Part shown: positions 31,072-38,190 of the stretch, one piece after another
Numbering within the stretch: position 1 is the stretch's first letter
Layout of the letters: each line of letters opens with the position of its first letter
Assembly: GCA_027005735.1 (NCBI GenBank)
Contig: JALTLF010000090.1
Coordinates: 18,509 to 65,415 of the forward strand
DNA length: 46,907 bases
DNA from: Chromatiales bacterium
GTDB taxonomy: Bacteria; Pseudomonadota; Gammaproteobacteria; CAMYNG01
Direction of reading: 5' to 3'
The notes under the pieces: generated by a model
What the model was told of the DNA's origin: nothing
What the model saw: the letters and a program-made list of their open reading frames with translations, nothing else
Databases searched by the model: none
Program-made: the position numbers and the translations under genes

Positions 31072-31353
31072 CGTGTGTGCCACCGTCTTGAAAGCCAGTT
31101 GGATATCATGAGTATTGCAGGGCGCCTGCCCGTTGTAAACGGGAATTCTCTCAATAACAGTAGCTTAGCGCATAAATTTGCGCCCCCGGCCACCCTGGGG
31201 CAGTGCCCTGGAGATGCAAACGCCGGCCGCGTCCCCGCGGGGTTCGCGCGCGTGCCGGGACGGCGATCCCGGCTCCTGCCGGGGCGGCCGGCCAAAAAAC
31301 CCGTACACTTTGCCGGAACACCTTGTCTGCGTTGAATTTTTCGCCCGGGTGGC

Positions 31354-31383
31354 TGGGCAAAACGGGGTGGGGATGCTTATAAT
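31354..31383 (+). promoter_or_regulatory. Possible ilvI promoter
   Basis: Perfect -10 TATAAT at 31378-31383 with TGGGCA (four of six) at 31354-31359 and an 18-base spacer. Transcription would begin near 31390 and cross the terminator hairpin at 31447-31468. Confidence 0.45.
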
Positions 31384-31446
31384 AACAGGCTAATTTTCTC
31401 TCCCCGACCCTCCGGGCCGGGGCAGGGAGCGCGATTTGCGTGTACG

Positions 31447-31468
31447 ACGCCCGTTCCGGGCGTTTTTT
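31447..31468 (+). terminator. Intrinsic terminator in the ilvI leader (attenuator candidate)
   Basis: ACGCCCG, loop TTC, CGGGCGT, then TTTTTT. It ends 21 bases before the ilvI GTG and lies downstream of the likely promoter, so transcripts must pass it to reach ilvI. The upstream gene is on the other strand, so it does not serve to end another operon. Confidence 0.75.
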
Positions 31469-31489
31469 CTCTTGTGAGGGGCCAAATTT

Positions 31490-33231
31490 GTGGAACTGAG
31501 TGGCGGCGAAATCATTGTCAAATTCCTGAAGGACGAGGGCGTGGAGTTCGTCTTCGGCTATCCCGGTGGCGCGGTGCTGCACATTTATGATGCCATCTTC
31601 CAGCAGGACGACGTGCGCCATATCCTCGTGCGCCACGAGCAGGGCGCCACCCACGCGGCGGACGGCTATGCCCGCGCCACCGGCAAGCCCGGCGTGGTGC
31701 TGGTGACCTCCGGTCCCGGTGCCACCAATGCCGTCACCGGCATTGCCACCGCCTACATGGATTCCATCCCGCTGGTGGTGCTCACCGGCCAGGTGGCGCT
31801 GCCCTTCATCGGTTCCGACGCCTTCCAGGAAGTGGATTCGGTGGGGATCACGCGCCCCTGCGTGAAACACAACTTCCTCGTCAAGCGCCTCGAGGACCTG
31901 GCCGAGACCCTCAAGAAGGCCTTCCACGTGGCCACCACGGGGCGGCCCGGGCCGGTGGTGGTGGACATCCCCAAGGACGTCACCGATCCCGGCATCAAGA
32001 TCCCCTATGAGTACCCGCAGGAAGTGCACATGCGCTCCTACAACCCGGTGGTCAAGGGCCATCCCGGGCAGATCAAGCGCGCCACCAATCTCATCCTGTC
32101 GGCGAAGCGTCCCATGATCTACACCGGCGGCGGCGTAGTGCTGAGCAATGCATCGCAGGAGCTCACCGAGTTCACCCGCGAGCTGGGTTATCCCATCACC
32201 CAGACCCTCATGGGGCTGGGTTCCTACCCGGCCACCGACCGGCAGTTCGTCGGCATGCTCGGCATGCACGGTACCTACGAGGCCAACATGGCGATGCACG
32301 AATGCGACGTGCTGATTGCCATCGGCGCGCGCTTCGATGATCGCGTTACCGGCAAGCTGTCGGAGTTCTGCCCCCACGCGAAGATCGTCCATGTGGACAT
32401 CGACCCGGCCTCCATCGCCAAGAATGTCAAGGTGGACGTGCCCATCGTCGGTGACGTCAAGCTGGTCCTCAGGGACCTGCTGGCCGAGCTGCGCGCGAAG
32501 GGCAAACAGCCCGATGCCGAGGCCCTCGATGCCTGGTGGGCGCAGATCGAGGAATGGCGCAGCCACAACTGCCTCACCTACGACCGCGACAGCGAACTCA
32601 TCAAGCCGCAGTTCGTCATCGAGAAGCTGTGGGAGGTCACCGGCGGAGATGCCTACGTGACCTCCGACGTGGGCCAGCACCAGATGTTCACCGCCCAGTT
32701 CTACAAGTTCGACAAGCCACGGCGCTGGATCAACTCCGGCGGGCTCGGCACCATGGGCTTCGGCATGCCGGCGGCGCTGGGGGTCAAGCTGGCTTTCCCG
32801 GACGATGAGGTGGTCTGCGTCACCGGCGAGGCCAGCATCCAGATGTGCATCCAGGAACTGTCCACCGCCATGCAGTACCGGTTGCCCATCAAGGTGGTCA
32901 ATCTCAACAACCGCTATATGGGCATGGTGCGCCAGTGGCAGGAGTTCTTCTACGAGAGCCGCTACTCCCATTCCTATGTCGAGGCCCTGCCGGACTTCGT
33001 CAGGCTCGCCGAGAGCTACGGCCACGTGGGCATGCGTGTCGAGAAGCCGGCCGACGTGGAGGGTGCGCTCAGGGAGGCCTTCGGCATGAAGGACCGGCTG
33101 GTGTTCCTCGACTTCATCACGGATCAGACCGAGAACGTCTATCCCATGATCGCCGCCGGCAAGGCGCACAACCAGATGCACCTGGCGCCGCAGTGCAAGG
33201 CGCCGCAGTCGAGCGAAAGGGAGCTGGCCTG

Positions 33232-33232: not shown

Positions 33233-34805
<1,573 letters not shown>

Positions 34806-34837
34806 GTTCGGCAGGGGCGCGGCCACGCCCGCGTAGC

Positions 34838-35464
34838 ATGACGACGGTTCGACTCTCCCTCCTTGCCCGCGAAGGGCAGCTGCCGGTGCTGCTCCTCGTC
34901 GTGGCGCTGGCGGTGAGCGGCTGGCTCGGCCTGTGGTGGCCGTTCGCGCTGCTGGCGCTGTTGCTGCTGGCGGCCCTGTGGATCTACCGCCAGCCCCATC
35001 GCCAGATCCCGGCCGCGCCGCTCGGCCTGCTGGCGCCGGTGGACGGGCGGGTCGTGCGCATCGAACGCGCCCGGGACCCGTATCTTCAGCGTGAGGCCTG
35101 GGAGGTGAGCATCGGTATGTCGCTGCGGGACACCGGCGTGGTGCGCAGTCCCACCGAGGGCAAGGTCATGCACCAGTGGCTGGACCGAAATACCGGGCCC
35201 TGTAGCGCCGGCTGCCTGGCCCACCACGTGCAGACCGACGAGGGCGACGACGTGGTGGTGCGCCTGCACCGCGGTCGCCTGCTGGGGCGCCTGCACGCCA
35301 GCCTGGTCAACGGCGAACGCGTCGGGCAGGGTGAACGCTACGGCTTCGTGCCCCTCGGCCGGGAAGTGACCCTGTGGTTGCCCACCGGGATCAGGCTGCT
35401 GGTACGCGAGGGCCAGCGGGTGACCGGCGGCGTCGATGTGCTGGCGGAACTGGTGCGGGACTGA
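34838..35464 (+). CDS. Phosphatidylserine decarboxylase homologue, probably inactive
   Basis: Membrane-anchored protein, 208 residues, clearly of the short Psd (archaetidylserine/PSD proenzyme) family: an N-terminal hydrophobic pair (about residues 16-49) then IYRQPHRQIPAAPLGLLAPV, DG at 69-70 and a lipoyl-like beta domain. The family needs Asp-His-Ser for self-cleavage and a pyruvoyl group. Asp69 (in APVDGRV) is kept, but the His block reads GMSLRDTGVVRSP (Gly100 where DVH is expected) and the cleavage motif G-S reads PLGREVTLWLP (Arg175 instead of Ser). It should therefore neither self-process nor decarboxylate. It lies between ilvC and pssA, the usual psd place. Confidence 0.8.
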   Translation: MTTVRLSLLAREGQLPVLLLVVALAVSGWLGLWWPFALLALLLLAALWIYRQPHRQIPAAPLGLLAPVDGRVVRIERARDPYLQREAWEVSIGMSLRDTGVVRSPTEGKVMHQWLDRNTGPCSAGCLAHHVQTDEGDDVVVRLHRGRLLGRLHASLVNGERVGQGERYGFVPLGREVTLWLPTGIRLLVREGQRVTGGVDVLAELVRD

Positions 35465-35541: not shown

Positions 35542-35555
35542 AGGAGAGGATCATC
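35542..35555 (+). promoter_or_regulatory. Ribosome-binding site and non-canonical ATC start of pssA
   Basis: AGGAG at 35542-35546 (within GAGGAGAGG) is followed by ATC ATC AAG AAG. In this frame the nearest upstream stop is TGA at 35505, and no ATG, GTG or TTG lies between it and the first conserved residues. ATC at 35553 is six bases from AGGAG; ATC at 35550 is the other choice. Confidence 0.55.
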
Positions 35556-36341
35556 AAGAAGAAGACAGGCAGTTACCGACGGCGCGGCATCTACCTGCTG
35601 CCCAACCTGTTTACCACCGCCGCCCTGTTCGCCGGTTTCTATGCCATCGTCGCCGCGACCAAGGACCAGTTCGAGAACGCGGCACTGGCCATCTTCATCG
35701 CCATGCTGCTCGACGGCATGGATGGACGCATCGCGCGCCTGACCAACACCCAGACCGAGTTCGGCGCCCAGTACGACAGCCTCTCCGACATGCTCTCCTT
35801 CGGCATTGCGCCGGCCCTGGTGACCTACGAGTGGGCCCTGTCCGAGATGGGCAAGCTCGGCTGGCTGGCGGCCTTCATTTATACCGCCGCTGCCGCGCTG
35901 CGCCTGGCGCGCTTCAACACCCAGGTGGGCATCGCCGACAAGCGTTACTTCCAGGGGCTCGCCAGCCCGGCCGCCGCCGCCATCACCGTGGGCATGGTCT
36001 GGGTGGGGGCAAGCTACGTGCTGGTCGGTCCGCCGTGGAACGGTATCGCCCTCGGCCTGACGCTGACCGCCGGGCTGCTCATGGTGAGCAACGTCCGCTA
36101 CCACAGTTTCAAGGGTATCGACTTTCGCGGCAAGGTGCCCTTCGTCACCATTCTTATCGTGGTGGTGATCATCGTCCTCGTCTCCTACGATCCGCCGGTG
36201 GTGCTGTTCGGTGTCTTTCTGATCTATGCCATCTCCGGTCCGGTGATGACCCTGTTACAGCTTCGCCGCCGCCGCGCCGAGCGCGCCCGGGAACATCGCG
36301 CCCAGCGCAGGGCACAAGCCCCGCCGGACAGTGAGGAATAG
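35553..36341 (+). CDS. pssA: CDP-diacylglycerol--serine O-phosphatidyltransferase
   Basis: Inner-membrane enzyme making phosphatidylserine from CDP-diacylglycerol and serine, about 262 residues if it starts at ATC 35553. The N-terminal RRRGIYLLPNLFTTAALFAG is the family start, and the CDP-alcohol motif D-x2-D-G-x2-A-R-x8-G-x3-D-x3-D is intact (DGMDGRIARL near residue 54, then GAQYDSLSD). RLARFNTQVGIADKRYFQGL is the type II PssA serine-site region. About seven membrane segments. The first in-frame ATG (35703) lies inside the catalytic motif, so it cannot be the start. An AUC start or a base error are the options. It follows a psd homologue that seems inactive. Confidence 0.88.
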   Translation: MKKKTGSYRRRGIYLLPNLFTTAALFAGFYAIVAATKDQFENAALAIFIAMLLDGMDGRIARLTNTQTEFGAQYDSLSDMLSFGIAPALVTYEWALSEMGKLGWLAAFIYTAAAALRLARFNTQVGIADKRYFQGLASPAAAAITVGMVWVGASYVLVGPPWNGIALGLTLTAGLLMVSNVRYHSFKGIDFRGKVPFVTILIVVVIIVLVSYDPPVVLFGVFLIYAISGPVMTLLQLRRRRAERAREHRAQRRAQAPPDSEE

Positions 36342-36642: not shown

Positions 36643-38190
36643 ATGAGCGACAGACTGATCATTTTTGACACTACCTTGCGCGACGGGGAACAGAGCCCCG
36701 GCGCATCCATGACCCGTGACGAGAAGGTGCGTATCGCCCGCGCCCTGGAACGCATGCACGTGGATGTCATCGAGGCCGGTTTCCCCATTGCCAGCCCCGG
36801 CGACTTCGAGGCCGTGCAGGCCGTGGCGCGGACCATCCGGGACAGCACCGTGTGTGGCCTGGCGCGTGCGCTGGACAAGGACATCGATCGCGCCGGCGAG
36901 GCCCTCCGCGAGGCCAACAGCGGCCGTATCCATACCTTCATCGCCACCTCGCCCATTCACATGAAGATGAAACTGCGCATGGAGCCGGACCAGGTGCTGG
37001 AGCAGGCGGTCCATGCCGTGACCCGTGCGCGCAAGTACACCGACAACGTGGAGTTTTCCCCGGAAGACGCCGGGCGCTCCGAGCTGGATTTCCTCTGCCG
37101 TGTCATCGAGGCGGTCATCGATGCCGGTGCCGGTACGGTCAATATTCCCGACACCGTGGGTTACAACGTGCCGGAGCAGTTCGGTGAGCTGATCCACAAT
37201 CTCCGCGAGCGCGTGCCCAATTCGGACAAGGCGGTCTTCTCGGTACATTGCCACAACGACCTCGGCCTTGCCGTGGCCAACTCCCTGTCGGCGGTCATGC
37301 ACGGTGCCCGCCAGGTGGAGTGCACCATCAACGGTCTCGGCGAGCGCGCCGGCAATGCCTCGCTGGAGGAAGTGGTCATGGCGGTGAAGACCCGCCGCGA
37401 CATCATGCCCTGCAAGGTCGATCACCTCGATACCACGCAGATCGTGCCCACCTCGCGGCTGGTGGCGGGCATCACCGGTTTCGCGGTGCAACCCAACAAG
37501 GCCATCGTCGGTGCCAATGCCTTTGCCCACGAGTCCGGGATCCACCAGGACGGCGTGCTCAAGAATCGCGAGACCTACGAAATCATGCGAGCCGAGGACG
37601 TGGGTTGGACGGCGAACCGCATGGTGCTGGGCAAGCACTCGGGCCGTAATGCCTTCCGCACGCGTCTCAGGGAACTGGGCGTGGAGTTTGCCTCCGAGGA
37701 AGAACTCAACGACGCCTTTGCGCGCTTCAAGGCACTGGCGGACAAGAAACACGAGATCTATGACGAAGATCTCCAGGCGCTGGTCACCGAGAGCGGTCTC
37801 GAGGCGGAGAACGAACACTACAAGCTGGTGGCGCTGCATGTCTGTTCCGAGACCGGCGAGACCCCCGTTGCCAGCATTACCCTGCGCGTGAACGGCGACG
37901 AGCGGAGCGCCGAGGCGCCGGGCAGCGGCCCCGTGGACGCCTCCTTCAAGGCCATCGAGAAGCTCGCCGACAGCGGCGCCGAGTTGCAACTCTACTCGGT
38001 GAGCAACATCACCACGGGTACCGATTCCCAGGGCGAGGTCACCGTGCGCCTGGAGAAGGGCGGGCGTATCGTCAACGGGCAGGGTGCCGACACCGATATC
38101 GTCATCGCCTCGGCGCGCTCCTACATCAACGCCCTGAACAAGCTCATGGCGGGTGAAGAGCGTGCGCATCCCCAGACGGGAGACGTATGA
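36643..38190 (+). CDS. leuA: 2-isopropylmalate synthase
   Basis: First committed step of leucine synthesis, condensing 2-oxoisovalerate with acetyl-CoA, 515 residues, bacterial length. The TIM-barrel start [20 protein letters not shown] has the catalytic Arg/Asp, and the metal HxH is in [35 protein letters not shown] is the second signature. The C-terminal leucine-binding regulatory domain runs from about residue 390. The ATG is preceded by GGAGCAGGACC. Preceded by the attenuator-like leader; a terminator-like hairpin follows. Confidence 0.97.

Follow-up and report, generated by a model that had tools for sequence, protein, structure and literature searches.

Psd enzymes and the ilvC-X-pssA locus

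Phosphatidylserine decarboxylase (Psd) forms the membrane lipid phosphatidylethanolamine (PE). In the Psd of Escherichia coli, roles have been described for the residues H144, S254 and D90 (PMC7952604). The His reads the carboxylate of phosphatidylserine (PS) and a loop contacts its phosphate; the H144A/N variants have no decarboxylase activity, H144 mutants make no PE, and S254A undergoes no self-cleavage (PMC7952604). Among openly licensed papers, nothing was found on dead bacterial Psd or on the gene arrangement ilvC-psd-pssA. Here we describe a gene of this arrangement, X, in the DNA of a Chromatiales bacterium (assembly GCA_027005735.1, contig JALTLF010000090.1); the window is the whole stretch that was analyzed, 46,907 nucleotides. 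The original prediction had placed a Psd homologue in the psd position of ilvC-psd-pssA, and this was borne out by the match of X to Pfam PS_Dcarbxylase (45.7 bits, cut-off 22), by profile alignment and by the gene neighbors. The gene order is ilvI-ilvH-ilvC-X-pssA-leuA, with every gene on the + strand, and includes the following features:

33771..34805, + strand, ilvC, 5' neighbor of X
34838..35464, + strand, X, short-form Psd homologue without the catalytic parts, 208 aa, intact ORF
35550..36341, + strand, pssA (type II, CDP-alcohol phosphatidyltransferase family), 3' neighbor of X; start codon uncertain, ATC at 35550 or 35553
36643..38190, + strand, leuA, next in the conserved run after pssA

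With the NCBIfam Psd models, the best score for X was 109.4 bits against a cut-off of 262, and the best E-values among 102 X rows also failed to reach the cut-offs; an intact short form, L011, scored 322 bits. Two further observations concern the neighboring genes. Between 35540 and 35560, pssA has no in-frame ATG, GTG or TTG near the Shine-Dalgarno-like GGGGAGGAG, and its start is likely ATC, at 35550 or 35553. In the other species of the genus (loci L005 and L010), pssA likewise has ATC at the second of these positions and lacks a usual start, which points to conservation of a rare start codon. Long open frames at 31151-33181 and 33555-34826 on the - strand lie antisense to ilvI and ilvC; they are not counted as genes, being a chance expectation in GC-rich coding DNA.

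X lacks the catalytic His, the self-cleavage Ser and the substrate loop

X was aligned with the intact short form L011, by profile-profile comparison (hhalign) with 22 intact short forms, and with the long-form Psd. In the alignment with L011, MSLRDTGVVRSP of X falls over MNVFNVHANRSP, and PLGREVTLWLP of X falls over RFGSRVDVYLP. The profile-profile comparison reached a probability of 100, and the long form (SPRDYHRIHMP, NLGSTVILLF) aligned in the same register with a weak score. The active-site features of X are as follows:

35042..35044, + strand, Asp69, kept (E. coli D90); 90% in X copies, 100% in intact forms
35135..35137, + strand, Gly100, in place of the catalytic His (E. coli H144) in all three alignments
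35171..35221, + strand, residues 112-128, a shorter substitute for the substrate loop YxPGKxFNAxxxKASxxNERNA of intact forms
35360..35362, + strand, Arg175 (after Gly174), in place of the self-cleavage Ser (E. coli S254) in all three alignments

These alignments, against short forms and the long form alike, agree with the original prediction that the family frame and Asp69 are kept, while the catalytic His has become Gly100 and the pyruvoyl Ser Arg175; none of the three puts His or Ser elsewhere, which was the alternative then considered. Across the X copies, the position of the catalytic His is mostly occupied by Tyr (56%) or Phe (24%), and no conserved nucleophile replacing the Ser was found in their alignment. 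The short-form loop PGKxFNAxxxKAS, which is homologous to the PS-phosphate contacts of E. coli, is gone throughout the X group, with 7 to 37 unconserved residues in its stead. Overall, X is almost certainly a pseudoenzyme of the Psd family.

X is widespread in Gammaproteobacteria

Next, the class was surveyed in 370 gammaproteobacterial genomes, of which 130 had a short-form match, whose loci were then read and sorted. One row of the profile used for this search, L008, had guessed letters for its first few residues; the final alignments were translated from DNA. X copies, meaning those without the His-plus-Ser pair, were present in 105 of the 370 genomes, from 52 families. Intact short forms numbered 22, in 12 families, and no family in the survey had both kinds. 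Of 107 altered loci, 101 had ilvC upstream and pssA downstream; most lacked both catalytic residues, 12 had kept GS with the His gone, and 3 had the His without GS. All six genomes of the host family carry the altered gene between ilvC and pssA, so that conservation of the altered sites, which had been proposed as a check, was seen in 5 of 5 relatives. With the loss shared by about 105 genomes, the double change is no sequencing slip, as had been argued; the same conservation, together with the low dN/dS described below, rules out a sequencing error or a local pseudogene.

A phylum-wide draw was also made, in which 28 loci, including the best out-of-class matches, were read in addition to the window and an intact copy already known. 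All 28 were intact Psds and X was not found outside Gammaproteobacteria in this draw; therefore, within this sampling, X seems restricted to the class. X is a large conserved group of dead Psd relatives, apparently undescribed. In the genome of locus L157 (G046:C2:154207-154857), PF02666 matches three times: to X, to a long form and to a further Psd-like stretch that lies within an open frame of 500 aa.

A long-form Psd nearly always accompanies X

The original prediction held that a cell with such a gene would need another Psd, and one was found in the same genome on another contig (C142, locus L001): a long-form Psd with a score of 196 bits and the motifs PVDG, SPRDYHRIHMP and LGST. Judging from these intact motifs, such cells would be independent of X for PE. 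Of the 105 X genomes, 99 also have a long-form Psd, against none of the 22 genomes whose short form is intact (Fisher 1.5e-19, uncorrected for kinship, and the families of the two kinds do not overlap). The H..H.P and GS[TS] motifs were intact in every one of the 60 long forms examined from X genomes.

In six X genomes, all of them drafts, no long-form Psd was found, and a rescan gave no other full Psd; the completeness of the drafts bears on this result. Five draft genomes in which X is present and another Psd was undetected (G084, G183, G206, G228 and G297) reflect either assembly gaps or lineages making PE otherwise or not at all.

Signature residues of X are already present in the nearest catalytic Psds

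X has a signature of seven residues that are rare in ordinary Psd, namely E107, D134, E135, D137, R161, G163 and Q164, located as follows:

35156..35158, + strand, Glu107 (RSPxEGK); 99% in X, 18% in intact forms
35234..35251, + strand, hairpin T133-D134-E135-x-D137-D138; D134 100% and E135 100% in X, 40% and 33% in intact forms
35312..35332, + strand, G159-E-R161-x-G163-Q164-G165; R161 99%, G163 98% and Q164 93% in X, R161 31% and Q164 31% in intact forms

D137 is found in 96% of X copies versus 23% of intact forms, and at the position of G163 the intact forms vary, with Gly not the commonest residue. The signature residues are conserved more strongly in X than in working Psds. The protein of the window has 7 of 7, and all 73 X rows have 6 or 7 of 7. 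Among the intact Psds nearest X, L028 has 5, L024 has 6 and L011 has 7 of 7, and more distant Psds have 0 to 3. This graded order on the stem was unchanged in a tree built without the signature columns; an exception is L032, with 2 of 7 though grouped with L026 and L011. A gain of the signature after catalysis was lost is ruled out, because the intact L011, L024 and L028 already carry it. Read most simply, its presence in the catalytic Psds nearest X points to an ancestor that already had a second function when it lost the first.

In a tree with the active-site columns removed, a single branch separates the 73 X rows from all others (SH-aLRT 99), and the X clade was also recovered when the signature columns were removed too (SH-aLRT 99). 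By the evidence of its sequence, the ancestor of X was a catalytic short-form Psd in the ilvC-psd-pssA operon. In a fuller tree, the His needs only 4 changes and GS needs 10, indicating that the His was lost first, about once, and the Ser repeatedly. Pairwise dN/dS of X was 0.04 to 0.28 (16 pairs with finite dS), somewhat higher than in the intact forms, which indicates that X is kept by purifying selection.

One further locus, L027 (G368, 1513-2139), has Tyr for the His, keeps GS and has a near full-length loop with a decayed motif. It carries the complete signature, 7 of 7, with a long-form Psd in the same genome. It looks like a transitional form, with an exact place beside X that is weakly supported in the tree.

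The predicted fold of X is a membrane-anchored beta domain

An AlphaFold2 model of X, built with 102 homologues (pLDDT 94.1, pTM 0.88), has two N-terminal helices followed by a beta domain, with the helices at:

34868..34984, + strand, two predicted membrane helices, residues 11-29 and 33-49 (AlphaFold2 model)

The two-helix anchor is followed by R51/R55, which would place the beta domain on the cytoplasmic side. In a Foldseek search of the PDB with the model, the best match was EIIA-Glc (3our_B, E 2.4e-5, TMt 0.66), with M23 peptidases next and the Psd relative PsiD only at rank 11; a control model of an intact short form had PsiD at ranks 1 to 3. In the PDB, bacterial Psd chains are divided at the cleavage site and make poor Foldseek targets; a PDB search by sequence with X gave weak matches only. 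We take the modeled fold of X as a stripped Psd core that resembles the duplicated hybrid motif, not as membership in the EIIA-Glc or M23 families.

Proposed function of X

Since X is conserved, catalytically dead and kept in the operon, it would do some other job. We consider it fairly probable that X goes back to a Psd with two functions, of which decarboxylation passed to the long form and a noncatalytic, membrane-anchored role remained. The ancestor would have combined decarboxylation with a noncatalytic function that depends on the signature; with a long-form Psd present, decarboxylation by the short form would have been redundant and would have decayed, and the second function would have retained X in the ilvC-X-pssA operon. 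X, held by its two N-terminal helices, may bind PssA through the cytoplasmic beta domain, and tune or scaffold it. Alternatively, X may act on the flow of substrate or product of PssA.

As the likeliest second function we tentatively propose an accessory role with PssA, or in phospholipid flux, at the inner membrane, and we give it somewhat less than an even chance. Counting against a role with PssA, a PssA-like match was found in 39 of 40 tested genomes that lack X (37 of them above the cut-off), and in about half of 30 loci looked at ilvC adjoins pssA without an X-like frame. A comparison of genomes with and without X gave no clear PssA residues that track X. The partial distance correlation between X and PssA was 0.41, with similar values for PssA and IlvC (0.35) and for PssA and the long-form Psd (0.33). 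This correlation is unspecific, and coevolution of X and PssA was therefore ruled out as evidence and is not used as support. More speculatively, the stem gammaproteobacterial Psd could have been bifunctional, its second function a control point of phospholipid synthesis that survives alone in X as an essentially class-specific regulator; if so, a regulator in a core operon is concealed under the name psd.

Among the other explanations, X could be a new enzyme, or could bind a ligand, at a site formed by E107, D134, E135, D137, R161 and Q164. The seven near-invariant polar or Gly residues with no known role in decarboxylation are consistent with such a site, as is the shift of the predicted fold toward the duplicated hybrid motif of EIIA-Glc and then M23. 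Nevertheless, the core of X has no conserved His, Ser or Cys nucleophile (C168 is only 73% conserved and is Tyr in the window protein), and neither the EIIA His nor the M23 HxH zinc site is present, so that we regard this explanation as unlikely.

By analogy with the trypanosome AdoMetDC, which is activated by a dead paralogue, the prozyme (PMC5201418), X might be a subunit that activates or stabilizes the long-form Psd, beside which it is nearly always found. However, in most genomes of the sampled class a long form occurs without X (321 long forms, against 130 short forms of both kinds). Moreover, the long form is encoded outside the operon and is only very distantly alike, and its partial distance correlation with X is 0.09. 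A prozyme-like subunit of this kind seems distinctly unlikely.

The original prediction had suggested, as an example of another job, binding of PS beside PssA, and X does share the operon with pssA and still has the membrane anchor and the general fold. Throughout the X group the head-group contacts are gone, both the His that would read the carboxylate and the phosphate-contact loop (roles from PMC7952604); therefore, PS binding is disfavored, and we hold it to be quite improbable.

A functionless remnant in slow decay would fit the several lineages in which ilvC adjoins pssA without X, the dN/dS somewhat above that of intact forms, and the faster evolution of X (mean distance 1.23) than of PssA (0.58) or IlvC (0.32). 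Against this stand intact frames in 52 families, dN/dS values well below 1 and residues more conserved than in working Psds, which make such a remnant very improbable.

Finally, a still active Psd with displaced His and Ser, for which the kept Asp69 and family frame might speak, can practically be dismissed on its sequence, given that the 106 sequences aligned show neither a conserved His nor a conserved Gly-Ser at another site, that E. coli H144A/N lacks decarboxylase activity and S254A lacks cleavage (PMC7952604), and that an active Psd is already present in the cell.

Comparison with known systems

X is kept in more than one-quarter of the sampled Gammaproteobacteria, in a core operon of phospholipid and branched-chain amino acid synthesis, and cannot carry out the reaction of its family name. 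Where a genome is annotated with two Psds, one of them may be dead, and X may be a conserved factor of membrane lipids that has gone undescribed. The gradation from intact through signature-bearing and transitional to dead copies would offer a good natural example of a moonlighting function passed on to a pseudoenzyme.

Compared with short-form Psd (PF02666; NCBIfam NF003680, PRK05305.1-5), X shares the fold, the two-helix anchor, the operon position and Asp69, but lacks the catalytic His, the Gly-Ser cleavage site and the substrate loop, and falls below every NCBIfam cut-off. The long-form Psd (E. coli type, LGST motif) has a distant, in-register homology to X and is the active enzyme of the same cells; unlike X, it is catalytic, is encoded elsewhere and has a larger N-terminal domain. 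The predicted beta fold of X matches EIIA-Glc and the M23/LytM domains through the duplicated hybrid motif. The fold alone is shared, since X has neither the phosphorylatable His nor the zinc site, and no conserved His in its core. Like X, the AdoMetDC prozyme of trypanosomatids is a dead paralogue of a pyruvoyl-dependent decarboxylase kept together with the active enzyme. However, it belongs to an unrelated family and forms a proven activating heterodimer (PMC5201418), whereas X has a candidate partner only, and its operon partner is PssA, the preceding enzyme.
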